Shown here in pieces: positions 1 through 29,821 of a stretch of DNA of 29,821 bases. The stretch is from a virus: IMG/VR virus record IMGVR_UViG_3300047476_000515, positions 1 through 29,821 of that record; one strand, 5' to 3'. The notes under the pieces are model-generated. The model searched no databases. It saw nothing but the letters and a program-made list of their open reading frames with translations, and had not been told where the DNA came from. Position numbers and translations under genes: made by a program. Positions within the stretch are counted from its first letter, which is position 1. Each line of letters opens with the position of its first letter.

Positions 1-3000
1 ATACACCATTATAAATAAAACCAGATCCAAAAGATATTGTGTAATATAATTTATCATTAAATAGGAATAAATCAGTTGTAACATCACCAGCTGAAGTAAA
101 ACCAGTTCCATAATTAAATGCAGTGTTAATAGATCCATCTGAGTTTATCGAAGTGGTTCTACTAGCATTTAATGTAGGATCAAATATCGGAGCATTATAT
201 CTTGTAAAAGATCCTGCCAAATATAATTTTTCATCACCAGATATAGTTTTAAATTGTATTGATGAAACGTTATCATTAATTCCAGTGCCTACATTAAATG
301 ATGTGTCTAACGTTCCATTTAGATTTAATCTAAATAATTTTCTAAAACCTTGTAAAGTAGTGCCATTATATGAGTCAGTTGCACCAGTTACATATAACTT
401 TCCAGTTGGCGACATAAATAATTTACCTTGTCCAAATGAAGGATCTGTGTTAGCAGATAAACCACTACCAGCGTTAGTGTTAAATGTAGTATCTAATGAA
501 CCATCTAAATTTAAACAAGCAATTCTATTTGCAGTTGCTTGGCCTTTATATTCATTAAAGATACCTAATACATAAACTTTATCTTCGTATGAAACAATAG
601 ATTCTACTCTACATAAAGATGGATCACTTGTATTATTAAAACCAGTAATAACATTAAAACTAGATATAAATTCTGCAGTAGTTGCATTTAAACCCGCTAT
701 ATCGTTTAAATTTGTTGTTGTTTGATATTGTGTATATTGGCCGCCAACTGCTAAAAATCTATCATATTCTACATCATTACCACCAGTTACAATGTTATTA
801 AACTCATATGTGTACTCATCATTTGTTGCAGATGAAACTACTAAAGTTACTGTAGCTGGTGTTTGAACTGTTGTATTGTCAAATGTATCTAAATTAATTA
901 AATAATTTGTTTGCATAGCACCATTAACAGTTGTTGTAGAGTTAATAGCTTTTAGTCTAACTCCATTTTCAACAGTAAATACTTGTGATACTTGTGTATT
1001 TGCTGGTTGACCTTGAGTTATAGTTACAGTACCAACATCTACGAACGAAGCTCCGTTGTCATATGACTTTTGTAGTAAAGTAGTAGTTAAATAACCTCGC
1101 TTTTCAGCAGATACGTTAACTGTAACTTCTACAGGTCCAGCAGGACATGGTGTACATGTAGTACAAGTGCTAAAAGCAGTTACAGCTCCTTCACCACCAG
1201 TTACTTGTGCAACTGTTGTGTCGTTAAATTTATAGAAACCATTTGTAACTTTTTGACTACCATTATTGGTGCTATAAAGTGTAGTGTTATTAGCAAATGT
1301 AGGGTTAGTACCGTACACGGTTGAAGTACCACCAAAGCAGCAACAAGCATCACATAAAACTGTGGATGCGCATACTGTAAATGGATAATAGGTTTCGCAT
1401 ACACAATTTGAGCACAAGAAATTATTAACTACTGAGCCATTTGCTACGACTTGTAGGGCTGTACCTTCACCCGATTGTTTATAGAATCCCGCCGGGCCAG
1501 GTGTAGTTAAAAGTGCATTAGTCCAAAAAGAACCATTTTGCAAAAAGTTAGCATTAGAGCCATAAACTGTAATTAGTGGTCCGTTATTGCAACAAACTTC
1601 ACAACCTGTAGTATTTAAATGTACAGTAAATTGATATGAAACTGGTACACAATCACATTCTGATGCGTCTTGTACTAAAATAGCACCGTTAGAGTTTACA
1701 AATATAGTACCAGTAGCATTTGAGTAATAACCAGGTGCAGCAATAATGCCGCCTGTCGCATCTTGATATGCTAACGTAGAATCTATTAGTGTACCGCCAT
1801 TAACATAAATGGTAACGTTCTGTGCACCTGCATATGTTGCACAACAATGAGCTGTACATAAATCTGTTTGACTATAGCATGTTTCAAAAGCTGTATATGT
1901 TGGAGGCGTAACTACTGGTAATGTAATACCAATGTTATTACCTAATTTAATTAATTGTACTTTACAGTTAGATGTTTCACCTGCAACATAATCTGATACA
2001 GAGTTAACAAAGTACCAAGAATCTTTAACAAAGATATAGTCATTAAACTTTAGATCTAGGATCTCGTTATAGTCTAATGCAAAGTAGGCTTCTACTATTC
2101 TAGAATATGGATCAAATGTTACGTCATACCATGTTTTCCAAAACGTGTTAAAACAACTAAATGAAGTTTGTGATTTTGGATTTGTTAGTACACCCGCAAT
2201 CAATTCATAGTTGTAAAGAGGTAATTCGTTTTCCCAATTTAAATCAAAAGTTGTAGGGGTAACTGGAAAATTTGAATACTGACTCATCAACGGATAGTCA
2301 TACATTTGAACTTTATTGGTATCATTTTGTGCCCACCAAGATATTGGAGCCGATCTCATACCATTCCAGAATACCAATCTCAATTTAGGTTGAATTGGTT
2401 CTCTTTTACCAACTGACACAGTACCAACTGACTCGCCATTACCACCAGTATCTTTAGCCATGTGTGGTATTAAAAAGCTAGCAGCCTCTATTTCTGAAAA
2501 AGATCCAGCAATATAACCAATACCATCTAAAGGTGTTGGTGCAAACTGATCTTTGTATTCTTTAGTTCCTTTAATTAATTCGTTAGTCGAGTCCAAGTTT
2601 AACTGACCAAAGGTTTGTTTGATACCTAATTGATAGTTGTAGTTTAGATAATCTGAGTCCTCTTGATCTTTGTAGATTTGGAATCTGGCTTGGTCAAAGA
2701 ATAATGGCTTGATAACCATATCTTTACTCGTGTCAAGTCTATCAGTCCAATCTTTAGAACGACCTTCTAAAACCCAATCTTTCCATGGTACAATTGTAAA
2801 ATGATTAGCTTCGAATTTAGATGGTACGAAAACAAGTCTATATCTGTTAATAATCGACTTCATAAAGTCAATCTTTCTAATGTTAGATGGCATAATACCA
2901 TTTACAGATAGGACTTCTGGTGCTTGAGTACATTCTACTGATTGACCATAAAATTGTATGTTAGTACCAAATAAACTAACTTGGCCAGAGATAACAAAGG

Positions 3001-4147
3001 TTCTCAATTGAAATCTAACTCTTTGACCAGCTTGTAAATATAAATTAAAGTCAGCATCTAAAGATTGGCCACCTGGATTACTTGAACTAAATGTCCATTG
3101 ATCATTGTATTGACTCAAAGATATGCCAGTGTCTGCATCTAATACATTAGCTTCGTAACCAATGATTACAATGTCTTGACCTCCGCCGTATAAATAGAAT
3201 TCAACTTCACTAGCCTTCATGCTCATATCATAGTTACCAGTTGATGGTGCTGTGTATATGCCAGAATCTGTAGAACTTGGCGTAAAGTTATTACCAGGAT
3301 CTGAAATTTCTATTGGCGTAATCCATGGAAATGGTTGACCGATCGTTGTGTTATAAATGCCTTGTCTTTCTGCACTAAATAGGTTTGAGTTATTTAAAGT
3401 AGCAGAAGCCACATTATCAGAAATAACATATTGATTTTTAAAGAATTCAGAATCTAAAAAGACTGAGTCGTATGTGTAACCAGCTTCTAAAAAGATTTGA
3501 TCCCAGATAGCTTTTGCTCTAATCTGTGGTTTCCATTGATCTTTTAGATATGGATTATTTGTATTTGTAAATGACTTTGCAAAACCAGTTGATAGTGTTG
3601 GTATATTTGGTTGGTTTTGAGCGTTGTATGTGTAACCCCACTCGATCAAACCATATCTAACATTACCATCAAATAGACCACCTGTAGTAGTCCAACTACC
3701 AGAGATATTAACCCATGATTTAGTGTGGTTGTATTGCGTCAAGTCGATCTCGTTCATAAAGCCACCACCAATCTTTGAACCAAAGTCAGATGTTGCACCA
3801 TAGAATGTAATCTCGTACTCAACAGAATTGTCTTTAGAGTTTACATTAATAGCGTTTAGTCTAATGTTACCATTCTCAAAGAAGATACCATTATCTAAAA
3901 TGTATGCATCTGCTTTTTTACTGGCGTCAAAGTTTAGTGAGTTAACATTAAAGACACCTTCAAAGAAAGGTCCATTAACTGCAGTATGTGGTACTCTAAA
4001 AGTTCTTGAGAATGTAGAGTTAGTTGCAGTTGGATCGATAATGTTAGCCACAGACAAGTTTAACTTGATTGGTTCTTCGATATGAAGATCAAGAGCTACG
4101 TATTGTCCGTTATTTTGTTGTTGTGCGTATAACTGTACTTGCGCCAT
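1..4147 (-). CDS. giant tail-tip/adhesin protein, N-terminal part (runs off left edge)
   Basis: An unbroken frame starts at an ATG at 4147, one base after the stop of the upstream gene, and is still open at base 1 (1,382 codons). Residues about 1-740 look like a tail-tip or baseplate-hub structural protein of the type found in Bacteroidota phages. Residues about 754-1000 form at least three Cys-rich modules of about 80 residues, with Cys pairs or triplets (CTAHCC, CEVCC, CDACCC) alternating with TVYG- and GYYS-like strands. From about residue 1130 to the edge are delta-60-type beta-propeller repeats, marked by LNLDGSLDTTFN, LNLNGTLDTSFN and INSDGSINTAFN. The position after tail chaperone and distal-tail-like genes fits a tail-tip or receptor-binding role at the virion surface. 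The architecture is seen directly; receptor binding is inference. The C terminus is probably the fragment at 28710-29821. Confidence 0.85.
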   Translation of the reverse strand, partial: MAQVQLYAQQQNNGQYVALDLHIEEPIKLNLSVANIIDPTATNSTFSRTFRVPHTAVNGPFFEGVFNVNSLNFDASKKADAYILDNGIFFENGNIRLNAINVNSKDNSVEYEITFYGATSDFGSKIGGGFMNEIDLTQYNHTKSWVNISGSWTTTGGLFDGNVRYGLIEWGYTYNAQNQPNIPTLSTGFAKSFTNTNNPYLKDQWKPQIRAKAIWDQIFLEAGYTYDSVFLDSEFFKNQYVISDNVASATLNNSNLFSAERQGIYNTTIGQPFPWITPIEISDPGNNFTPSSTDSGIYTAPSTGNYDMSMKASEVEFYLYGGGQDIVIIGYEANVLDADTGISLSQYNDQWTFSSSNPGGQSLDADFNLYLQAGQRVRFQLRTFVISGQVSLFGTNIQFYGQSVECTQAPEVLSVNGIMPSNIRKIDFMKSIINRYRLVFVPSKFEANHFTIVPWKDWVLEGRSKDWTDRLDTSKDMVIKPLFFDQARFQIYKDQEDSDYLNYNYQLGIKQTFGQLNLDSTNELIKGTKEYKDQFAPTPLDGIGYIAGSFSEIEAASFLIPHMAKDTGGNGESVGTVSVGKREPIQPKLRLVFWNGMRSAPISWWAQNDTNKVQMYDYPLMSQYSNFPVTPTTFDLNWENELPLYNYELIAGVLTNPKSQTSFSCFNTFWKTWYDVTFDPYSRIVEAYFALDYNEILDLKFNDYIFVKDSWYFVNSVSDYVAGETSNCKVQLIKLGNNIGITLPVVTPPTYTAFETCYSQTDLCTAHCCATYAGAQNVTIYVNGGTLIDSTLAYQDATGGIIAAPGYYSNATGTIFVNSNGAILVQDASECDCVPVSYQFTVHLNTTGCEVCCNNGPLITVYGSNANFLQNGSFWTNALLTTPGPAGFYKQSGEGTALQVVANGSVVNNFLCSNCVCETYYPFTVCASTVLCDACCCFGGTSTVYGTNPTFANNTTLYSTNNGSQKVTNGFYKFNDTTVAQVTGGEGAVTAFSTCTTCTPCPAGPVEVTVNVSAEKRGYLTTTLLQKSYDNGASFVDVGTVTITQGQPANTQVSQVFTVENGVRLKAINSTTTVNGAMQTNYLINLDTFDNTTVQTPATVTLVVSSATNDEYTYEFNNIVTGGNDVEYDRFLAVGGQYTQYQTTTNLNDIAGLNATTAEFISSFNVITGFNNTSDPSLCRVESIVSYEDKVYVLGIFNEYKGQATANRIACLNLDGSLDTTFNTNAGSGLSANTDPSFGQGKLFMSPTGKLYVTGATDSYNGTTLQGFRKLFRLNLNGTLDTSFNVGTGINDNVSSIQFKTISGDEKLYLAGSFTRYNAPIFDPTLNASRTTSINSDGSINTAFNYGTGFTSAGDVTTDLFLFNDKLYYTISFGSGFIYNGV

Positions 4148-4148
4148 T

Positions 4149-5633
4149 TTATATAGTTTGTAGATTTTGCGTTGTTGCTAATTTAACTGTAAATGTACCT
4201 TGTACTAATTTAGTTTGTCTAACATTTTTAGTTGTATAACTTGTATTTGTTACTACACAATTGTATGGTATCAAATCTGCTTGTGTATTATTAGGATCTT
4301 TAATATAACAAAGTACTTGTGGAGATTTAACCAAACCTTCTAATAGATTTACTTGATCTTGAGTCAACCAATCTGTTTGAATGGCGTATGTAGTCTCTGC
4401 TTGTTTAGCGTATGGTTTTGTACCACCGATAATACTTGCATTACCAAAAGGCACTGTGTTAGGTTGTGCAACTGGAACTGGAAGGGCTGATGAGTAATCG
4501 ATCTGCTCTTGGTTATAATTGCTTTGTGTTGTATTTATAGTCTTCTCTGTAAACATTGTAAAGTTCATGTAGTCACGACCTGCAAGAGTGTTAAACCATG
4601 AAAGTCTAACTCTTGGGTATAGTGGTGTACAGTACTCTAATATTTGGAATTGTGATTCTAGTGTTGCTGGTGTGCTAAAGTTACAGTCAGTCGATTGGTT
4701 ATATCCTTGAATAGAGATAGTCTGACCAGCTGTGATTGGTGACCAACCAAGAGCTTGTGCCAGTTTATCAGGACTTGCTAATACATGCACTAAACTAAAT
4801 TTAGAGTCTAACGTAGTACCAACTGTGTTAGTACAGATTTCTCTTTGACCAAAACCAGTACTTGTTAACATTGGAACATCATTGGTGTTTACAATTGTAC
4901 CATTAGCTGCAAGTCTTTTAAAACGGAAACCAAAGATTGTGTATGGTTGTGAACCACTTGAGATTGGCGCCCAGTTTAAATAACTCAAGACAGCATTGTC
5001 GAATTGATAAATGCTTTGAGTTAATGGTGCATAATTTAAAGGATGTGCTAAACCTACATTATGGTCATAGTTTGTGTTAGCATCAAATGGATTACCACCA
5101 AAAATACCAGATTGAAATGTAGATCTCATCTGCCATTGTTGTTCTAGGTCTGTCATTGATGCGCAGAAAATTGTAACTGGTGTAGTTAGGTTACCATTTT
5201 GTGTATTACCAGAATAAAGCAAGAATGCTGGTTCGCCAGCTGTGTCTGTTTGACCATTATAGATTTGTGTAACACCATTAAAGGTATACTCTTCGCCTAC
5301 TTTAATAAAATACTTTTGTGACATTAAATTGTTATCGCTATAGACTTTTGAGTTATCATAGTCAATAGTTAATTCACCTTGTGTCATTGCAGCATCTCTG
5401 TTAGACGAATCGATGTAACCTTGCACCAAAGTCGAAATGTCAATCATACCAAAGCCTGCTGGATTTGCACGTTGTTTGATTCTTTGGATTGGTGTTGCGT
5501 TACCTACTTGGTAAATATCAAAGACATATTTAAAGTCTACTGAGTTTACTTTAGAACTTGACACTGACCATATAATTGGATTATAGGCTGGTGAAATCCA
5601 AACTGGTTTGTATGGAACTGATGTTATTGCCAT
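4149..5633 (-). CDS. distal-tail-like / baseplate structural protein
   Basis: This 494-aa protein is beta-rich, without signal peptide or membrane segment. The N-terminal part has a motif around YVFDIYQVGN followed by RANPAGFGMIDIS, which I associate with tail-tip proteins of Bacteroidota siphophages. The C-terminal region (from about residue 410, TYAIQTDWLTQDQ onward) resembles the strand-rich end of distal tail proteins. It starts at an ATG behind an A-rich leader, 6 bases after the stop of the -1 extension of the chaperone frame. Its stop is one base from the next ATG, so it is translationally packed with the giant tail gene. It probably forms the ring between tail tube and tip, or part of the tip. 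The assignment rests on gene order and weak motif resemblance. Confidence 0.55.
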   Translation of the reverse strand: MAITSVPYKPVWISPAYNPIIWSVSSSKVNSVDFKYVFDIYQVGNATPIQRIKQRANPAGFGMIDISTLVQGYIDSSNRDAAMTQGELTIDYDNSKVYSDNNLMSQKYFIKVGEEYTFNGVTQIYNGQTDTAGEPAFLLYSGNTQNGNLTTPVTIFCASMTDLEQQWQMRSTFQSGIFGGNPFDANTNYDHNVGLAHPLNYAPLTQSIYQFDNAVLSYLNWAPISSGSQPYTIFGFRFKRLAANGTIVNTNDVPMLTSTGFGQREICTNTVGTTLDSKFSLVHVLASPDKLAQALGWSPITAGQTISIQGYNQSTDCNFSTPATLESQFQILEYCTPLYPRVRLSWFNTLAGRDYMNFTMFTEKTINTTQSNYNQEQIDYSSALPVPVAQPNTVPFGNASIIGGTKPYAKQAETTYAIQTDWLTQDQVNLLEGLVKSPQVLCYIKDPNNTQADLIPYNCVVTNTSYTTKNVRQTKLVQGTFTVKLATTQNLQTI

Positions 5634-6439
5634 GATAATTTATTTTTTATTTTCGAGCTCCATCTGTCTACGATAGTTCTCTTCTTCTCTTTGTTTATTT
5701 TTTCTGTGCGCGAGGTAGTTGAAGATTCCAATAACACTAGTTCGTTCAACTTCTCCAGTTTTGGTAATATCATCTCCTGCACAGAAGAATATGATTTTGC
5801 TCCAGTTTCTAGCAGTTCTAACATGATCTGGGTCGTTAGGTCGATCATTGCTTTCTCTCTCAGCGTCGTCTCTGGTTTCTGTGTCAAAGAGCTGAGAGTA
5901 GTTTCTACGTAATACTTTGACACTGCTAAAAAAAAATTAAATGCACCTGTTACATATTTAACAGGCAATTGCAAGAACTCTTCAGCTCTTGTCATTAATG
6001 TATCTGAGTTATAGGCTTCAACTTCCATCCACTTTTCAGTGATTTGTACAGCTGGTCTATAAAGGATTGCCATCATTATGTGCAATTTCTTTTGAGTCAT
6101 TGGATCTGTTTTTAGGACGTCCATGTCAGCAAACTCACCTAATGTAATTTTACTCATATCTAAAAAGCCATACAATTCACCTTTGTAAACAAAGTTTTTG
6201 TGAAATGGTGTTGTGTCTTCTAGATTTAAATAGTTTTCTACTACTGCATCCCAGATAACAATAAACTGATGCTTCTCTAGCTTCTTTAATTCATTCAGGT
6301 CACACTTTGAAATGCGACTAATGATTTCCATCTTTGCAGCAAAATCTTGACGTACAATCAGATCTTGTATGTCATAATAATGTTGGATAGTCACATCCTC
6401 TATTTTATATTCTTTGCCACTAATTTTAAACTCTATCAT
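5624..6439 (-). CDS. tail assembly chaperone-like protein, frame-0 product
   Basis: The zero-frame product is 271 aa, opening with MIEFKISGKEYKIEDVTIQ. It is largely helical and acidic/basic mixed, as expected for a tail assembly chaperone or T4 gp26-like protein. Such proteins coat the tape measure during tail assembly and are absent from the virion. The gene lies after the tail-terminator and gp10-like genes, where siphophages carry the lambda G/GT-type pair. Codons 168-171 (Asn-Phe-Phe-Leu) lie on a run of nine T, from which a second product probably arises by -1 slippage. Downstream the zero frame stays open about 100 codons and overlaps the next gene by 10 bases. The region after the slip site looks less AT-rich than its neighbours, as expected if two frames are constrained. 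The start overlaps the upstream gene by 14 bases. Confidence 0.7.
   Translation of the reverse strand: MIEFKISGKEYKIEDVTIQHYYDIQDLIVRQDFAAKMEIISRISKCDLNELKKLEKHQFIVIWDAVVENYLNLEDTTPFHKNFVYKGELYGFLDMSKITLGEFADMDVLKTDPMTQKKLHIMMAILYRPAVQITEKWMEVEAYNSDTLMTRAEEFLQLPVKYVTGAFNFFLAVSKYYVETTLSSLTQKPETTLREKAMIDLTTQIMLELLETGAKSYSSVQEMILPKLEKLNELVLLESSTTSRTEKINKEKKRTIVDRWSSKIKNKLSWQ
5640..5927 (-). CDS. -1 frameshift extension of the tail chaperone (GT-like)
   Basis: In the -1 frame after the T-run, 95 codons are open from AGC at 5927 to TAA at 5642-5640. No usable ATG, GTG or TTG lies near the beginning, so the frame needs ribosomal slippage from the upstream gene. The sequence is protein-like: it starts SSVKVLRRNYSQLF, has IGIFNYLAHRKNKQ near the end and finishes in a highly charged helix ending MELENKK. 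It stops 6 bases before the ATG of the next gene, a cleaner junction than the 10-base overlap of frame 0. The fused product would be about 266 aa: 171 residues from frame 0 plus 95. Lambda G/GT is the textbook precedent. Efficiency, and which tail is conserved, cannot be judged here. Confidence 0.65.
   Translation of the reverse strand, partial: SSVKVLRRNYSQLFDTETRDDAERESNDRPNDPDHVRTARNWSKIIFFCAGDDITKTGEVERTSVIGIFNYLAHRKNKQREEENYRRQMELENKK
5927..5938 (-). promoter_or_regulatory. slippery site for -1 ribosomal frameshift
   Basis: On the minus strand the zero-frame codons read AAT TTT TTT TTA, containing nine consecutive T. This includes U-UUU-UUA, a canonical X-XXY-YYZ heptamer for tandem P- and A-site tRNA slippage. 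Slipping back one base makes the next codon AGC and opens the 95-codon frame. I did not identify a clear downstream stimulatory pseudoknot. Confidence 0.65.
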
Positions 6440-18028: not shown

Positions 18029-18234
18029 TATTTAAAATTTATATTTAGACCAGATGTTACGTATGTGTTGCTAACAGTTTGGTTTAAAGTAATATTTAAA
18101 CCTGAAGTTTTCCATTTTGCAACAGATGTTAATCTTTGCCATACGAGAATAGCACCTCTGTAAACAAAATTTACATTGACGCTATCTCTTTTTAGGTCTG
18201 TTATGCTATTTATTTGTCTTTTAATGTCTCCCAT
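18028..18234 (-). CDS. 68-aa hypothetical protein
   Basis: The start chosen is the ATG at 18234 (MGDIKRQINSITDLKRDSVN), which overlaps the upstream stop by one base. A longer in-frame start at 18306 would lie inside the fibre gene and looks like shadow. The product is 68 aa, basic and strand-rich, with two similar short pieces, TSGLNITLN and TSGLNINFK, suggesting a small internal repeat. The name-giving context is the fibre/tailspike operon, where it may be a small tail component. The function is unknown. Confidence 0.65.
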   Translation of the reverse strand: MGDIKRQINSITDLKRDSVNVNFVYRGAILVWQRLTSVAKWKTSGLNITLNQTVSNTYVTSGLNINFK

Positions 18235-19916
18235 TATTCGATAAAGTATAGTGTTGTTGCTGAATATGTACCTAAAGCTGTGTATTCTGCTTGAGTTCCA
18301 CTCCAAACGTTTGTTATTGTATTAGGTCCAGAAGTTGTAATAGTTCCAGATGGTGTAGTTCCAGATGTACCGCTTGTACCAGCTAATCCATTGATACCAC
18401 TCGTACCGCTTGTTCCAGAAGTACCAGAAACTGAAGCAACTGTAGTTACAACAAATGAATAGTATTGTTGACCTTCAGTGTACCAGTTAACTGTGTGTGT
18501 AGTAGAATCATTGTTTCTCAAGTAGAGTTTAACAATCATTCTATTTGTTGGATCTATAATAGTATTTGAAAGTGTTAGATCTAATGTTACTTCAGCTGGA
18601 GTAGAAGCATCTACCCAACCAATTTCATCTAAACCAGATTGAATTACTGGACCAAATGGTGTGCCTGTTGAATCTGCTAATTGAATAGTTACATAGGCTT
18701 CGATTTGGTCATTAGATCCTGGTTTTAAATAGTGTAAATAAAATCTTTGATTTCCACCAGGAATTACACCAAAACCAAGTTGAGGTGTTATAAATTGACT
18801 AACCAATACGTTTTGTGCACCGTTAGTTAAAGTAGTTGGCGTTACAACTTGTGGTCCATTAGGTGTTGTTGCTAAAACTTTATATGTAGCAACGTCTGAA
18901 TTTTGAGATTGATTAAAGTAATATGTTTGACCACTCGAAATACCATTAACACCGCTTGTACCACTAGTTCCAGATGTACCATCATTCGATACTCCACTTG
19001 TACCGCTTGTTCCTGATGTGCCAGGCGTTCCAGGTTGAGAGATGCCAGATGTACCACTTGTTCCATTAGCTCCGCTAGTTCCATTCTGTCCTGACGTACC
19101 TGATGAGCCACTAGGACCAGTAGATCCATTAACACCAGAAGTTCCAGACGTACCAGAACCATTACTTTCGCCAGAGGCTATTAAAGTTAAAAAGCCATTA
19201 AATGTAAAATCAGATATTGCAGCTCCAAAATAAAGAACAACAGTAATAGATGTTGTAGTTTTATTTGTAAAATTTACTGCAATTGAACTTGAAGTATTAC
19301 TAAATGCTTGATCTGGAATATCACTAACATCCCATGTAAAGTCTACTGAGTAATTTGTGTTAGCAAAAGCAGAACCAAAATTAAAAGTTTTAGTATTTGT
19401 ATTACCATCAAAAGTCCAACCTTGGTTATCAGTAATAATTACTTTAGAAGGTAATCCTAGTGCTGATACACCTGACGTGCCCGAAGTTCCAGCGCTTCCT
19501 GTTTGGCCAGAAGATCCGTTAACTCCACTGGTTCCACTTGTTCCGCTTGTACCTCGTGTGCCGCTTGTGCCTGAAGTACCTGCACTTCCTGTTTGGCCAG
19601 AAGAACCATTAACTCCACTTGTACCGCTAGTACCTGCTGCTCCATTTGTTCCGCTCGTTCCAGAAGTTCCAGCAAGTCCTTGAGTAGGTCCTGTCCAGTT
19701 TCCGTTTTGATCAATGACTTCACCATACTCTTCTATGAATAAATTTTTAGATGTTAAAAAACCAACTTCTACGTCAGTTTCTGACACTTTAATTGGTAAT
19801 TCATTACCTTCTCCATCAGAAAGTGGTTTTAGTGCACCATCAATAGGTTCGTTATCTAATGTCTTGATTAAACCTTTAAAGGTTTCATAAATGTATTTGT
19901 TTAATAAACTTGCCAT
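18234..19916 (-). CDS. collagen-like tail fibre, 560 aa
   Basis: The N-terminal 75 residues (MASLLNKYIYETFKGLI, PLSDGEGNELPIKVSET, NLFIEEYGEVID) match the beginning of the next fibre gene and probably attach to the tail. Three collagen-like Gly-X-Y blocks (about 80-150, 252-328 and 507-530), dominated by Gly-Thr-Ser, alternate with globular beta domains. The C terminus reads VWSGTQAEYTALGTYSATTL then YFIE, a motif found at the ends of many phage fibre proteins. The repeats should form a trimeric shaft. Proline is scarce, so stability must come from Thr/Ser and intertwined domains. A 90-bp internal DNA repeat lies at 19495-19604. Confidence 0.85.
   Translation of the reverse strand: MASLLNKYIYETFKGLIKTLDNEPIDGALKPLSDGEGNELPIKVSETDVEVGFLTSKNLFIEEYGEVIDQNGNWTGPTQGLAGTSGTSGTNGAAGTSGTSGVNGSSGQTGSAGTSGTSGTRGTSGTSGTSGVNGSSGQTGSAGTSGTSGVSALGLPSKVIITDNQGWTFDGNTNTKTFNFGSAFANTNYSVDFTWDVSDIPDQAFSNTSSSIAVNFTNKTTTSITVVLYFGAAISDFTFNGFLTLIASGESNGSGTSGTSGVNGSTGPSGSSGTSGQNGTSGANGTSGTSGISQPGTPGTSGTSGTSGVSNDGTSGTSGTSGVNGISSGQTYYFNQSQNSDVATYKVLATTPNGPQVVTPTTLTNGAQNVLVSQFITPQLGFGVIPGGNQRFYLHYLKPGSNDQIEAYVTIQLADSTGTPFGPVIQSGLDEIGWVDASTPAEVTLDLTLSNTIIDPTNRMIVKLYLRNNDSTTHTVNWYTEGQQYYSFVVTTVASVSGTSGTSGTSGINGLAGTSGTSGTTPSGTITTSGPNTITNVWSGTQAEYTALGTYSATTLYFIE
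19495..19604 (-). repeat. 90-bp-period repeat in collagen-like region
   Basis: CTTCCTGTTTGGCCAGAAGA on the plus strand occurs at 19495-19514 and again at 19585-19604, an exact 90-bp period equal to 30 residues. It encodes the repeated stretch GVNGSSGQTGSAGTSGTSG. Such repeats can expand or contract by slippage and change shaft length. Confidence 0.75.
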
Positions 19917-19925
19917 ATTGTTTTA

Positions 19926-20894
19926 TTATATTGTTTGTGCTGATGTTCTTGCAAATGTTATACCAGACATAAATGCACTATTTGCTGCGTTTGCTTGAGT
20001 TGCTGTAATTACAAAATATTGATCTTGCGTCCAATCAACTGGTGAAGTTATTACACCGCCAACTGGAGCTCCAACAAATTCACTACCTTGTGTAAAATTA
20101 TAGTATTGTGTACCATAATTTGTACCATTTTGTTTATTAACATAAAAGAATTTTTGAAATGCTATAGATGCAGAAGTAATAGCTCCAGTAGTTGCGCCAG
20201 TTGAATTTAAAGGCAATGCACCAAAATTAGTAGGGTTTGTATTTAAATATGATTTATATGTTGTAGTAGCGCTAACCGTTTTTACGCCATCAAATCTACC
20301 CATTAACATCCATATTTCGTTATCTTTAACAGTATTAGCAGGAATCAAAAGTGTATAAATTATAGTTTCTGCTGTAGTGCCAGTAACTGGTGTAGTTCTA
20401 TCTGTTATAACAATAGCTGGTACACTTGCATTTGTGCCACTAGTACCAGCAGTTCCACTAGTTCCTGATGTGCCAGGCGTACCAGGTTCAGACACGCCGC
20501 TTGTGCCTGATGTTCCATTTAGTCCAGCAAATCCATTACGGCCTGACGTACCTGATGAGCCATTTTGACCACTTGTGCCACTGGTTCCAGAGCTTCCTGT
20601 TAATCCACTAGTTCCACTCGTGCCAGAAGTACCAGTACCTCCACCACCTCCACCTTCACCGACAAAATAACCTTGAGCATTTATTACTTCACCATAACCT
20701 GCAATAAAAAGGTTTGGTACAGTTGTTGGTGCTGTTAGATTTACTTCTGTCTCACTAACTTCTATCGGTAAATGATTACCTTCTCCATCAGTTAAAGGCT
20801 CGAGATTAGCTCCTAAACCACTCGTTCCTGAATCACCAATTCCTATAATAGATTTATAGGTTTCATAGATGTATCTGTTAAATAAATTTGCCAT
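19926..20894 (-). CDS. collagen-like tail fibre, 322 aa
   Basis: The N terminus (MANLFNRYIYETYKSII, PLTDGEGNHLPIEVSET, NLFIAGYGEVIN) is paralogous to the 560-aa fibre. It is followed by a six-Gly stretch (81-86) and a Gly-X-Y block (about 87-155), then a single beta-rich C-terminal domain of about 165 residues. That domain shares nothing obvious with the neighbouring fibre. The two genes share DNA stretches in the collagen part, for example CCTGATGTGCCAGGCGT near 20463 and 19012. They probably provide two alternative or co-assembled adhesins of different reach. The ATG lies 13 bases after the upstream stop. Confidence 0.85.
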   Translation of the reverse strand: MANLFNRYIYETYKSIIGIGDSGTSGLGANLEPLTDGEGNHLPIEVSETEVNLTAPTTVPNLFIAGYGEVINAQGYFVGEGGGGGGTGTSGTSGTSGLTGSSGTSGTSGQNGSSGTSGRNGFAGLNGTSGTSGVSEPGTPGTSGTSGTAGTSGTNASVPAIVITDRTTPVTGTTAETIIYTLLIPANTVKDNEIWMLMGRFDGVKTVSATTTYKSYLNTNPTNFGALPLNSTGATTGAITSASIAFQKFFYVNKQNGTNYGTQYYNFTQGSEFVGAPVGGVITSPVDWTQDQYFVITATQANAANSAFMSGITFARTSAQTI

Positions 20895-21516: not shown

Positions 21517-22050
21517 TTACGCAGGAGTAACAGTTAAACCGCCACCAACAACATCAGCTAGAGAAGATCCAGCTTCGATTGGATATGCTGCAGTTGGTTC
21601 CTGTGCAGTGAAAGATAATGAGTATTGGTTAGCGTCAGCTGGCGCAGTACCAGTTGCAGCAGAAGAAGCTGACATAACAGCACCTCTGTCTAGACCCATA
21701 ATCCAAGTAATATCGTTTTGATCAACAAAAGCGATTTTTAAATCACGATTTTGAGCTAAAAGTAAAATTGAATTACGCTTTTGCGCACTCATTTTTTGTA
21801 AAATGATAGTTAATACTCCTTCGTAGAACACAGTTCCCGCGGTGTTTGATACGTTGATTGCTTCGTTAAAGAAAGCTGTATCTTTAGCTAATTGATATTC
21901 GTAGAATGTACCAGTACCAGAAATTGCAGTGATTTCTCCTGCAGCTACGGTAGTTGATGTAATTTCACCTGCTAAAAAATACGCTGTCTTTAAACCGCCA
22001 ATACCACCCATACAATCTAGTGGTAACGCTGAATTAATTAAACAAGCCAT
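21517..22050 (-). CDS. major tail tube-like structural protein (candidate)
   Basis: The protein is 177 aa. The N terminus MACLINSALPLDCMGGIGGL then KTAYFLAG, the central FYEYQLAKDTAFFNEA, GTVFYEGVLTIILQKMSAQK and RNSILLLAQNRDLKIAFVD follow a pattern I associate with a small abundant Bacteroidota phage structural protein encoded next to the capsid gene. The strand-rich composition and a terminal YSLSFTAQEPT segment fit a tail-tube fold. It is transcribed after the capsid gene, separated by a weak hairpin, and followed by a strong terminator. A capsid decoration protein is the main alternative. Confidence 0.6.
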   Translation of the reverse strand: MACLINSALPLDCMGGIGGLKTAYFLAGEITSTTVAAGEITAISGTGTFYEYQLAKDTAFFNEAINVSNTAGTVFYEGVLTIILQKMSAQKRNSILLLAQNRDLKIAFVDQNDITWIMGLDRGAVMSASSAATGTAPADANQYSLSFTAQEPTAAYPIEAGSSLADVVGGGLTVTPA

Positions 22051-25751: not shown

Positions 25752-26234
25752 CTATTTTAATTTATCAGTCTCATTTTTGATGTCTTTAGCTCTAGCTGTC
25801 AACTCTTTAAAGTAATCCCAAAAACCTTTCTTTTTAACTGCTTTAAAGTTTTCGTCAATAGAAAATAACTCTATTGAAATTAAAGTTAAAGCAACTAATT
25901 TAGTAGCTAATAAAGGAACAGTAAAAAATTGTTGAATGATGTCATTTAAAATAAATTTATCAACAGCAAAAATTAGAACTACAGTTGCTTGATATAAAAA
26001 CATCTTTGAGATGATCTGACTCAATTTTCTTGAGGTAACTGTTTGTTTTAGTTTTTTAGCTTTCCAAACACCCATAATAGTATCTGCAATAATACAAATA
26101 CCTACGGTTATCATTATACCGTGTATTGGTAATAAAAAAGCAGCTATTGCCATCATAATTCTATGTGCACTGCTCTGTAAAGCAAGTGCTAAATATTTTA
26201 TTTGTTCCATAAAGCAGGCGTACAAGGTTTCCAT
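25752..26234 (-). CDS. phage holin-like membrane protein
   Basis: The protein is 160 aa with three hydrophobic helices at about 27-56, 75-96 and 104-124. The first two are separated by a basic loop (KAKKLKQTVTSRKLSQ), and a charged C-terminal tail (LTARAKDIKNETDKLK) follows. The order and the IELFSIDENFKAVKKKGFWD segment after the third helix fit the holin_4/toxin-secretion holin family. Holins form inner-membrane lesions that time lysis. Its ATG overlaps the tape-measure stop by one base, and Met9 is an alternative start. No endolysin is evident nearby, which is odd, so a structural membrane role cannot be excluded. Confidence 0.65.
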   Translation of the reverse strand: METLYACFMEQIKYLALALQSSAHRIMMAIAAFLLPIHGIMITVGICIIADTIMGVWKAKKLKQTVTSRKLSQIISKMFLYQATVVLIFAVDKFILNDIIQQFFTVPLLATKLVALTLISIELFSIDENFKAVKKKGFWDYFKELTARAKDIKNETDKLK

Positions 26235-28639
26235 TATATTTTTGCTAAATCATTAATGCGTTTGTCAGCTTCTTGTTGACTTGAAACGTCACTCGCAACA
26301 ACATATGTTTTAAAGATAGGTGCTGCGTTATTGCCACCTCCATTTTGAGTTTGTATTGGTGCACCGCCACCAGCTTGGTTAATTTGGTTTAATAAACCAC
26401 CAAACATTTCAGTTGAATTAGCATTAATAACAGATTCGCCATTTGATAACATAGCAGGAATAGAATCTGACACACTAGTGCCTGCGCCTGACACATAACC
26501 ACCACTTGCAAATTTGCTAGCAGATGGTCTTGGCGCTGCACCTCCGCCTCCACCACTAGAAATATTTCCAGTTGGTGTTTGTACTGACATAATTTTCTTT
26601 ACATTCATTAAACCACCAGCAATAGCCACACCTGCAGCAACTGCTGCTAATGCAGGACCTATAACAGGTATACCTACTAATGATTTATAGGCTTTAGTCG
26701 CAGATTGATATGTATCAATAGTAGTACCAGCAATTGCAATTGCTTTACCTGCTACTGTATCTTGACCTGCTAAAGCTGATGCATTTTGTAATAAACTAGA
26801 AATAGCATTTAAATTTGCTTCTTTAGCTGCTGCAGCTGCATCATCAATTTCTTTTCTGGCTTTTGCATTCTCTGCTATAGCCATAGTTCTTTGATCTTCA
26901 TTCTCAAAAGTCATTTCAGTAATTAACTTTTGATTAGCATCGTTTAACGCTATTTTTTCTGCATATGTTGTTCCTTCTTGTTGGATTTGCCATTGATTGA
27001 AAGCCAATTCGTCTTCCATATCTTTTTGTTTAAATCCAGCATTTTGTTCATCAACCTTTGCTTGGTTAACAGCTTTAACAGCAGCAATCTTTTCACCTTT
27101 TTGTGTTTCGGTTAACTCAGATGCATTAATTTCTGCAATTTGTTTATCGAGTTCTATTTGTAATTCTGCCGCAGCACGTGTTCTTGCATTCTCAATATTT
27201 AACAAGAACGCATTATTTTTGATCTCTTCTAATTCCTTTTGGAATGTAGCTTCTTTTTCTTTTTTAGCTTCAGCTTGAGTATCTAAAAGGTTTTGAGTCT
27301 CTTGCGCTTGTGTAACACCTAATTGCTTTTGTTGAGCGTATAACGAATTTAAATACTTTTGCTCTTCAGCAGTTAAAGCTTTTTTCTTGGCAAGTTTATC
27401 GATTTCAACTTGTACTAATGCTTGTGCATTCTTTTGTTGAATCTCTAATTCTTTTTGGGCTTTTTGATCTGCATCTTTAATAGCATCTATTTCAGCTTTT
27501 TGCTTTAACTCTAAAATCTTTTTTTCGGATTCTACAGTTTTATCTTGTATTTCTTTTAAATGCTCGTTATATTTTTCTTTACGCTCTTTCTCTTTTTCTG
27601 CAGCTTTTGTATTAGCTTCTTTAGCTTTATCTTGTTTTTGTTTATCGTATGCCGCTTGATCAATTAGTGCTTGATTATTTAAATCTTTAACAGCTGCTTG
27701 AAGTTCTGTTAATTTCTTTTTCTTGTCATCATCTAACTCTCCATCAATTTGTTGTAGTTTTAACAATTGATTAATAGCTGCAGTTCTAGATGCAACTTCT
27801 TCTTGGTTAATCTTTTTCTTTTGTGCTAGCAATTGCTCTTCAGTTGCACCTTGTGCTTCCATTAAAGCTAATCTTCTTTTACTTGCAGCAATCATTTTAT
27901 TTTGTGCAGATCCTACATCATCTAAAGATGAAATAACCTTTTCTGCATTATCTCTTGTTTTTGCTGTAGCAGAATCGTCAATTAAACCAAATGTTAATGC
28001 TGATGCAAGATCTCTGGCTTTGCCAATAACGAAATCTATAGCATCGCCAAGTGGTTTAAACGCGGCGCCGAACTTTTTAACTGCACCAATAGCAACTGTC
28101 ACACCTATTACTAATGCAGCAAGTGCAGTTACAATTAAACCAATTGGATTGGCAGATAAAATAGCATTAGTAATTAGAGCTTCTTTACCAAAAAGTCTAG
28201 TTGCAACGGCTGCAGCCTTTTCAGTTGTAGTTCTCAATGCAACTGCAGCATCTACTTTTAGTTCTGCAATTTGTCTAGCATTTAACGCTGCTGTGATTAA
28301 CCCGTTTGCTGTAGATGAAATAGTTCCTAAAGCTTTAGATTCTACTCCAAAACTTTTTAAAGCTCCTTCAGCAACATCAAATGAGCCTGAAATACCACCA
28401 GCAAGATCATTGAACTGATCTTTGACTTCTTTGGTTCTAGTATCGTTCTTGAATTCTTTAACAGCAGCTTTGGCTTGTTGAATTCTACCTACTATTTCTT
28501 CATATGCAGCGCTACCATAGTCTGCGCTAGCTGCTTCTTTAGTTAAATCTCTAATGGCACCTTGCAATTCAGTCAAAGATTTGACCGTTTGTTCAACACC
28601 ATTAACTTTTATCGAGAAACCTACTTCGTTATTTGCCAC
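26234..28639 (-). CDS. tail tape measure protein (GTG start)
   Basis: The protein is 801 aa. The start is GTG at 28639, since in-frame stops lie upstream and no ATG is close. The N-terminal VGFSIKVNGVEQTVKSLTEL and helices match tape-measure openings. A hydrophobic stretch (161-186, SANPIGLIVTALAALVIGV) resembles the membrane-inserting part. Long Lys/Glu/Ala coiled coils run from about 245 to 620. A C-terminal hydrophobic region and FASGGYVSGAGTSVSDSIPA complete the pattern. At about 0.15 nm per residue, the family rule predicts a tail of about 120 nm. The TAATG junction couples it to the holin gene. Confidence 0.9.
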   Translation of the reverse strand: MANNEVGFSIKVNGVEQTVKSLTELQGAIRDLTKEAASADYGSAAYEEIVGRIQQAKAAVKEFKNDTRTKEVKDQFNDLAGGISGSFDVAEGALKSFGVESKALGTISSTANGLITAALNARQIAELKVDAAVALRTTTEKAAAVATRLFGKEALITNAILSANPIGLIVTALAALVIGVTVAIGAVKKFGAAFKPLGDAIDFVIGKARDLASALTFGLIDDSATAKTRDNAEKVISSLDDVGSAQNKMIAASKRRLALMEAQGATEEQLLAQKKKINQEEVASRTAAINQLLKLQQIDGELDDDKKKKLTELQAAVKDLNNQALIDQAAYDKQKQDKAKEANTKAAEKEKERKEKYNEHLKEIQDKTVESEKKILELKQKAEIDAIKDADQKAQKELEIQQKNAQALVQVEIDKLAKKKALTAEEQKYLNSLYAQQKQLGVTQAQETQNLLDTQAEAKKEKEATFQKELEEIKNNAFLLNIENARTRAAAELQIELDKQIAEINASELTETQKGEKIAAVKAVNQAKVDEQNAGFKQKDMEDELAFNQWQIQQEGTTYAEKIALNDANQKLITEMTFENEDQRTMAIAENAKARKEIDDAAAAAKEANLNAISSLLQNASALAGQDTVAGKAIAIAGTTIDTYQSATKAYKSLVGIPVIGPALAAVAAGVAIAGGLMNVKKIMSVQTPTGNISSGGGGGAAPRPSASKFASGGYVSGAGTSVSDSIPAMLSNGESVINANSTEMFGGLLNQINQAGGGAPIQTQNGGGNNAAPIFKTYVVASDVSSQQEADKRINDLAKI

Positions 28640-28709: not shown

Positions 28710-29821
28710 TTAGCATATGTCTGTTGCTGTTGCTATATATGAACCACCTATGACATTTAAAGAACCTTGTCTAATACAAACTCCAGTGGTTGCAAAGTTA
28801 CCTGGATATATGTCACCATACAAAATTTCATCGATGCAAGATAATGCGTTCCAACTGATTATATTACCAGATGTGTTTTGTATTCTATAAACAGCATAAC
28901 AATCACCGATTCCACAATCTGTAGTACAATCAAAGGTATTAACTACGTTTCCATTATTAATAACTTGTAATGCTATACCAAAATTGTATGCATAATAACC
29001 ATTTAGTGCAAATGCAGTCCCTTGTGGATTTGTATATAAAACAGCGTTCGAACTCCAGTTTGGATTTAAACCATACACTGTAATACTTGCATATGATCCA
29101 CCGCCACAAGATACACAAAGATTTGCATCAAATGTTACATCAAATTGATATAAAGTATTACAATTACATGTGCTAACATTAGTATAACCAATAATTAAAC
29201 CATTACCATCTACTTCAGCAATTGTACCACCATCAGAGTACCAACCTGGTGCAGCGAATGAGGTACCTGTTTCGTTTGCATATAAAATAGTAGAATTAAC
29301 TAAAGTTGTTGCATTACCATAAATTACAGTATTGTATGGAGTTGCACAAAAAGCTGCACATGGAGATTCATTACTGTATGATATATTAATTGGGTATACA
29401 ATCGGAGGCGTTTGATAAAGCACTTCTGATAAAGTGTATACAAAATCTGTGTCACCTGGATTTGAGAATCCAGTTCCTACATTAAACGCAGTAATTGGAC
29501 TACCATCTGTTTTGTTTATTTTAACTAAATTAGATGAAGCAAAACTTCTATAACTATTAAATTTACCCCACGAATATAATCCATCTGATACAGCTAATAT
29601 TTCTATTCTATTACCAACTGGACTGAAAGGTTCAGTATTATTATTAAAAGTAGTATTTAGTGTCCCGTCAAAATTTAATTTAGCAACTCTAAATGATGCT
29701 GTACCATTATATGAAGCAAATTCTCCACTATAATATAAACCTGTTGAATCTGCTTGTATAGCTTCTGCACCATTATTAAATCCTGTAGTAACACCTGAAT
29801 TAAAAGTTGCATTAGGTGTTC
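28710..29821 (-). CDS. giant tail protein, C-terminal part (starts beyond right edge)
   Basis: The frame is open from the right edge (codon phase: last two bases of a codon at 29821-29820) to TAG/TAA-type stop at 28712-28710, giving 369 complete residues. The GTG at 29423 is not a real start, since the reading frame continues upstream without a stop. The first part has delta-60-type repeats (GTPNATFNSG, LNFDGTLNTTFN). The remainder is Cys-rich modules (CAAFCATPYN, CNCNTLYQF, CVSCGGG) like those of the left-end gene. It is probably the C terminus of that same protein. Cys-rich modules on both sides of the repeats suggest a duplicated or symmetric architecture. It ends before a terminator. Confidence 0.8.
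   Translation of the reverse strand, partial: TPNATFNSGVTTGFNNGAEAIQADSTGLYYSGEFASYNGTASFRVAKLNFDGTLNTTFNNNTEPFSPVGNRIEILAVSDGLYSWGKFNSYRSFASSNLVKINKTDGSPITAFNVGTGFSNPGDTDFVYTLSEVLYQTPPIVYPINISYSNESPCAAFCATPYNTVIYGNATTLVNSTILYANETGTSFAAPGWYSDGGTIAEVDGNGLIIGYTNVSTCNCNTLYQFDVTFDANLCVSCGGGSYASITVYGLNPNWSSNAVLYTNPQGTAFALNGYYAYNFGIALQVINNGNVVNTFDCTTDCGIGDCYAVYRIQNTSGNIISWNALSCIDEILYGDIYPGNFATTGVCIRQGSLNVIGGSYIATATDIC

Follow-up and report, generated by a model that had tools for sequence, protein, structure and literature searches.

A putative phage tail chaperone gene with a conserved T9 run and two long, overlapping C-terminal reading frames

Frameshifted tail assembly chaperones are widespread; among the textbook examples examined here, almost all of the -1 tail falls outside the frame-0 gene. 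A minus-strand gene of the virus record IMGVR_UViG_3300047476_000515 (29,821 nucleotides, analysed over its whole length and called the window below) raises the question of whether a single piece of DNA can encode two long alternative C-termini of such a protein, one read in frame 0 and the other reached through a -1 shift on a run of nine T.

The slip site, the two frames and their homologues

The features of the gene and of its immediate surroundings are the following.

5624..6439, minus strand: frame-0 gene, 271 aa, putative tail assembly chaperone (G-like, with a long C-terminus), from the ORF and its translation
5931..6439, minus strand: N-terminal domain common to both products, about 170 codons, from alignments and a match to phrog_32199 (E 6e-5)
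5928..5936, minus strand: T9 slippery run with the heptamers T_TTT_TTT and T_TTT_TTA
5881..5923, minus strand: possible stimulatory stem-loop, 4 nt past the T run, with a 9-bp stem GUGUCAAAG/CUUUGACAC (about -11.6 kcal/mol)
5640..5936, minus strand: -1 frame tail (T-like domain), 98 codons including FFF, proposed to be reached solely via a -1 shift
5624..5927, minus strand: frame-0 C-terminal tail, 100 codons, overlapping the -1 tail almost wholly
4149..5633, minus strand: next gene, 494 aa, probable tail protein, with its ATG inside the end of frame 0

The T9 run, which reads as A9 on the plus strand (5928-5936), lies in the frame-0 codons AAT TTT TTT TTA GCA, codons 168-171 being AAT TTT TTT TTA, and it provides an in-frame slippery heptamer of the X_XXY_YYZ type. 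The -1 frame is opened by a stop immediately before the run and comprises 98 open codons including FFF, 95 of them beyond T9; its TAA (5640-5642) is separated by 6 nt from the ATG of the next gene (5633). Frame 0 stays open for 100 codons past T9 and overlaps the next gene by 10 nt (ATGGCAATAA). The predicted products are thus a frame-0 protein of 271 aa and a -1 fusion of about 267 aa; the 494-aa product of the next gene has no Pfam or PHROG match. The preliminary description of this DNA, made from its letters, had reported the site, the 95-codon frame ending 6 nt short of the next gene and the overlap of frame 0 with that gene, all of which are verified in the sequence. It had also seen the region as less AT-rich than its surroundings, which holds mildly: the GC content is 0.36-0.39 in the overlap, slightly above the 5' portion of the gene (0.32-0.33) and the sequence downstream (0.34-0.36).

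A protein search of IMG/VR retrieved 14 relatives (49-96% identity), every one of which carries AAT/AGT TTT TTT TT(A/G) and keeps both frames open beyond it, the -1 frame for about 98-107 codons. Profile searches with the -1 tail led to relatives sharing only 22-31% identity, and the homologue set comprises about 80 sequences that form three diverged clades, with identities down to ~20%. Alignments show that the N-terminal domain is conserved across these sequences. The site has a T9-T11 run in all of them except one, which has T8C, and an in-frame U_UUU_UUN heptamer was found in all homologues examined. The -1 tail is conserved in every homologue free of contig-end truncation (which affects a few clade-2 entries) or apparent indel.

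The three clades differ in what follows the run. Clade 1, to which the window belongs (22 entries, 17 distinct sequences), has T9 throughout except in L019, the T8C case, and 90-104 frame-0 codons and 95-103 -1 codons past the run. Clade 2 has T10 or T11 (with one T9, in L143), 12-47 frame-0 codons and 91-95 -1 codons, and clade 3 has T9, 15-24 frame-0 codons and about 78 -1 codons. Homologues with broken T runs and with stops in the -1 frame, the pattern that had been named beforehand as speaking against a shift, were looked for and the opposite was found, the run and the -1 tail being kept in about 80 sequences from three clades. The T9 of L143 (L143:2083-2580) stands where its close relatives L140 and L142 have T10; its frame 0 closes at once and the usual frame-0 tail falls into the -1 frame. 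It looks like a natural variant or a sequencing error, resembling a one-base indel relative to L140/L142.

Clade 3 includes a cultured phage, the Nonlabens (Persicivirga) phage P12024S. Its gene 38 has the site CTT TTT TTT TAT (T9) and a -1 continuation, its N-terminal domain is homologous to that of the window gene (phrog_32199) and its -1 tail is homologous to that of the window (hhalign probability 92%, E 5.7e-7); it differs from the window gene in its frame-0 tail of 24 codons, versus 100. P12024S_39, annotated as a hypothetical gene of its own, covers the end of the -1 continuation of gene 38. From their sequences, P12024S_38 and P12024S_39 appear together to form a single frameshifted gene (L081:23136-23830, JQ823122.1). 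The T9 site of P12024S is also present in locus L089. In Flavobacterium phage 6H (L082:10352-10927), a fold-related gene ends at a T6 site, where a -1 shift meets a stop immediately; the same frame holds a T-like stretch further downstream, and the phage 6H group may use another route to its T-like part. Given this T6 site without simple -1 continuation, phage 6H was not counted as a family member with the site. The relationship to P12024S suggests that the host of the window virus is probably a member of the Bacteroidetes. Two scans of GTDB genomes gave no relative and hence no cellular host, and a tblastn search of 50,697 phage records with the N-terminal domain and -1 tail of the window and L053 gave no match.

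Access to the -1 tail

The -1 tail is conserved as a protein and is almost devoid of start codons of its own. In the window, its single start codon is an ATG at codon 91, in keeping with the earlier statement that the frame has no near start. This tail lacks any ATG, GTG or TTG in about half of the 22 clade-1 entries, and in most of the others it has only a late ATG, also at codon 91; the exceptions are L022, with an additional GTG (codon 46), and L038/L039, with an ATG at codon 9. Because usable starts are nearly absent from clade 1, independent initiation cannot explain the conserved 95-codon tail, and it was rejected for this clade. A programmed -1 shift, as first suggested for this gene, is supported by the site, by the conservation of both frames and by the selection described below, a signature on which slippage of the ribosome and of RNA polymerase are indistinguishable.

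The stem-loop that begins 4 nt past the T run is a possible stimulatory element. Its complementary arms occur only in the window, L001, L002, L018 and L019, with shuffle z-scores of -1.0 to -1.8 that are not significant, and a competing fold is preferred over it in the window and in L001 when 80 nt are considered. Among the clade-1 relatives, a conserved stimulatory hairpin was sought and none was found beyond the immediate relatives of the window.

The T run itself is exceptional in its genomic context. In the AT-rich 29.8-kb window it is the sole A/T run of at least 8, versus 8.7 expected from the dinucleotide composition. In each of 14 clade-1 loci (122 kb in all) the slip site is the sole run of at least 9, and besides the sites these loci have one A/T run of at least 8, versus 22.6 expected in all. 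This purging of long runs would fit slippage of RNA polymerase, which would insert one U in part of the mRNA on T9-T11 and would replace ribosomal frameshifting. The strict maintenance of run length would fit as well, T9 or longer being kept with a single exception among about 80 sequences, where a run of 7 would do. Precedents exist: transcriptional slippage is known on a U run in Shigella mxiE and on A9 in Thermus dnaX (PMC1088944). The mxiE case resembles the present one in that the gain of one base on a T run joins two frames, and differs in that the gene encodes a cellular regulator and that it is the polymerase that slips (PMC1088944). However, the heptamer is in frame at every site, L019 with its T8C still keeps U_UUU_UUU, the known shifts in tail chaperone genes (lambda, P2) are ribosomal (PMC5009743), and long A/T runs elsewhere are not avoided in the loci of clades 2 and 3. 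Slippage of RNA polymerase is the less probable route, even though it is the rival that fares best, and the slipping machinery would more probably be the ribosome.

Constraint on the two frames

In all 17 distinct clade-1 sequences, both frames are open for ~90-104 codons. When frame 0 of the window was fixed and its codons were shuffled synonymously, the -1 frame stayed open in 3.4% of the trials with the codons of the overlap itself and in 0.02% with the codon usage of the gene. Over the 17 sequences, the corresponding proportions are 0-10% and at most 0.8%; when the -1 protein was fixed instead, frame 0 stayed open in 0.2-36% of the trials, and in at most 1.8% with gene codon usage. Since the shuffles rarely keep the double frame and since it recurs in every complete homologue, its presence together with T9 is beyond chance.

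If only the -1 tail were functional, frame 0 would be open as a passenger, for instance through translational coupling that brings ribosomes which have not shifted to the start of the next gene. Several features are in line with this: the -1 frame is far more strongly constrained, the length of frame 0 ranges from 12 to 104 codons between clades, and, in clade 1, the start of the next gene is found at -10 to +37 nt relative to the stop of frame 0. The amino acids of frame 0 are nevertheless kept beyond what conservation of the -1 frame would impose as a shadow. The similarity of the frame-0 tails exceeds the -1 shadow prediction in 17/17 pairs (z 2.1-5.1, the z-scores not being independent, as the pairs share branches), and this excess is spread along the whole tail. 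An upstream single-coding control gave values mostly near 0, with a few pairs at z 2-3. In the reverse test, conservation of the -1 frame exceeds the frame-0 shadow with z 5.7-8.8. Among 16 frame-0 tails, G213 and L231 are invariant and E211 is nearly so. A purely passenger frame 0 is consequently regarded as unlikely.

Codon-level data point in the same direction. Where sequences agree in an amino acid, its codon is also the same in 57.5% of cases upstream, in 79.5% for frame 0 of the overlap and in 78.6% for its -1 frame, and in most close pairs the changes altering both proteins are below expectation (e.g., 10 versus 15.5 between the window and L018). Both tails thus appear to be under purifying selection, the -1 tail more strongly. 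The suspicion, raised in the preliminary description, that two long alternative C-termini are both used is supported by this selection on both frames.

Function of the gene and comparison with known frameshifted tail genes

The gene lies between neck/tail genes and the 494-aa gene, which is followed by a very large fibre-like gene and then by the tape measure gene (26234-28639), two genes further downstream across the record ends. It had been said to occupy the tail-chaperone slot, which is roughly true as regards the neck/tail module; the tape measure gene is two genes on and does not adjoin it, and the gene is not located between a tail tube gene and the tape measure gene. In clade 2 and in P12024S, it directly follows the terminase gene. 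Candidates for the tube protein of the window virus are the products of 21517-22050 and of the 494-aa gene (4149-5633). Elsewhere in the record, one minus-strand ORF runs off both ends (2-4147 and 28710-29819); therefore the genome is probably circular or circularly permuted, and the joined ORF would encode some 1,750 aa that include Cys-rich repeats. Two adjoining genes (18234-20894) carry long collagen-like GTSGTSG repeats and probably encode tail fibres.

No match to a chaperone family reaches the cut-off, and searches of Pfam, NCBIfam and PDB sequences gave nothing above threshold. The most frequent Pfam match is Phage_TAC_7, sub-threshold in 4/30 members (best E 0.011), and one member has a sub-threshold match to the tail assembly chaperone family phrog_3860 (E 0.007). 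In the AlphaFold2 model of the frame-0 product, the N-terminal domain has a pLDDT mostly of 85-92 and is followed by predicted helices; folded alone, the -1 tail gives a separate helical fold, with residues 40-98 at about 80-86. Foldseek found no match below E 1 in the PDB. Among viral models, it retrieved many uncharacterised phage proteins, including those of P12024S (E 2.6e-8) and Flavobacterium phage 6H (E 3.2e-4), and a weak match to a 'tail assembly chaperone' (E 0.058). A common N-terminal domain with alternative C-termini, one of which would be reached by a -1 shift, is recognizable from sequence architecture and conservation. By analogy, from its module context and from the sub-threshold family matches, the gene appears to work like a G/GT chaperone gene, its membership of the family being probable but unproven.

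The product might instead be a structural neck or tail protein with a minor frameshift-extended form, like SPP1 gp17.1* and virion proteins of phage A2, and have no chaperone role. The tape measure gene that does not adjoin, the neighbours of neck type or terminase, and the lack of any significant match to a chaperone family are all compatible with such a protein. The small common N-terminal domain, the T-run heptamer like those of P2 and SPP1, and the fact that the best sub-threshold matches are tail chaperones argue against it and make it a rather improbable option.

The reading that is preferred, with a probability of about 0.72, is that of a G/GT-like tail chaperone gene from a siphovirus related to cultured Bacteroidetes phages, with a programmed -1 shift and a long doubly coded C-terminus. 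The majority of ribosomes would read frame 0 and produce the 271-aa protein. A minority would slip one base back on T9 (U_UUU_UUU, U_UUU_UUA) and produce the protein of about 267 aa, which would carry the same N-terminal domain as the frame-0 product and a different, helical C-terminal tail. In lambda, the tape measure is bound both by G and by the G portion of GT, and the T portion binds the tube protein (PMC5009743). The common domain of the window gene would by analogy coat the tape measure, with its -1 tail recruiting subunits of the tail tube. In clade 1, frame 0 itself runs about 100 codons more, so that one DNA encodes two full-length C-termini.

A more far-reaching version would have ~100 codons of a tail chaperone gene doubly coding for two equally long, independently functional C-domains, the frame-0 one being an overprinted, clade-specific novelty, and polymerase slippage on the strictly kept T9 acting instead of or besides the ribosome; as a whole, it is judged unlikely. 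A homopolymer sequencing error or a decaying gene is rejected, for although homopolymer runs are error-prone and L143 is one T off L140/L142, the run and two open frames recur in contigs that come from many samples and share 40-60% protein identity, and the complete genome of the isolate P12024S has the site too.

Two C-termini of about 95-100 residues are encoded by one DNA and each bears signs of selection, which makes the gene a clear natural example of phage overprinting that can be compared with short-tailed relatives. The gene would also offer a system where ribosomal and transcriptional slippage can be separated, and the analysis provides a poorly annotated group, the cultured P12024S among its members, with a frameshift annotation. 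A literature search, with subscription journals outside its scope, returned no report of this doubly coded case.

What sets the gene apart from known frameshifted tail genes is the length of frame 0 past the slip site, which is 5 codons in lambda, 5 in HK97, 6 in P2 and 8 in TP901-1, versus 90-104 in clade 1. Because the tails of clades 2 and 3 and of these textbook cases are short, the sequences suggest that the long frame-0 tail arose by later overprinting; the tree supports a single long-tailed clade weakly (33/59). Homology of the -1 tail to the classical T domains (lambda, HK97, P2, TP901-1) was considered and set aside, with no detectable sequence relationship, lambda T included.

Lambda G/GT shares with the window gene a common N-terminal domain, a -1 shift, a -1 tail made as a fusion and a place in the late tail region. 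It differs by its site (GGGAAAG), by the 5 frame-0 codons after this site (100 in the window) and by the position of G/T between the tube protein and tape measure genes, the window gene being located elsewhere. P2 E/E+E' has a T-run heptamer (TTTTTTG), and its family, Phage_TAC_7, is the one most often matched below threshold; it differs by the 6 frame-0 codons after the site and by the location of the gene directly before the tail-length gene T. SPP1 gp17.5/gp17.5* have in common with the window gene a T-run heptamer and two different long C-termini: a putative -1 shift at UUUUUUC yields proteins of 173 and 297 aa with 112 aa in common (PMC6316719). In SPP1, however, the frame-0 tail has about 61 aa and the -1 tail about 185 aa (PMC6316719), whereas the two tails of the window gene have nearly the same length and coincide over almost all of it.
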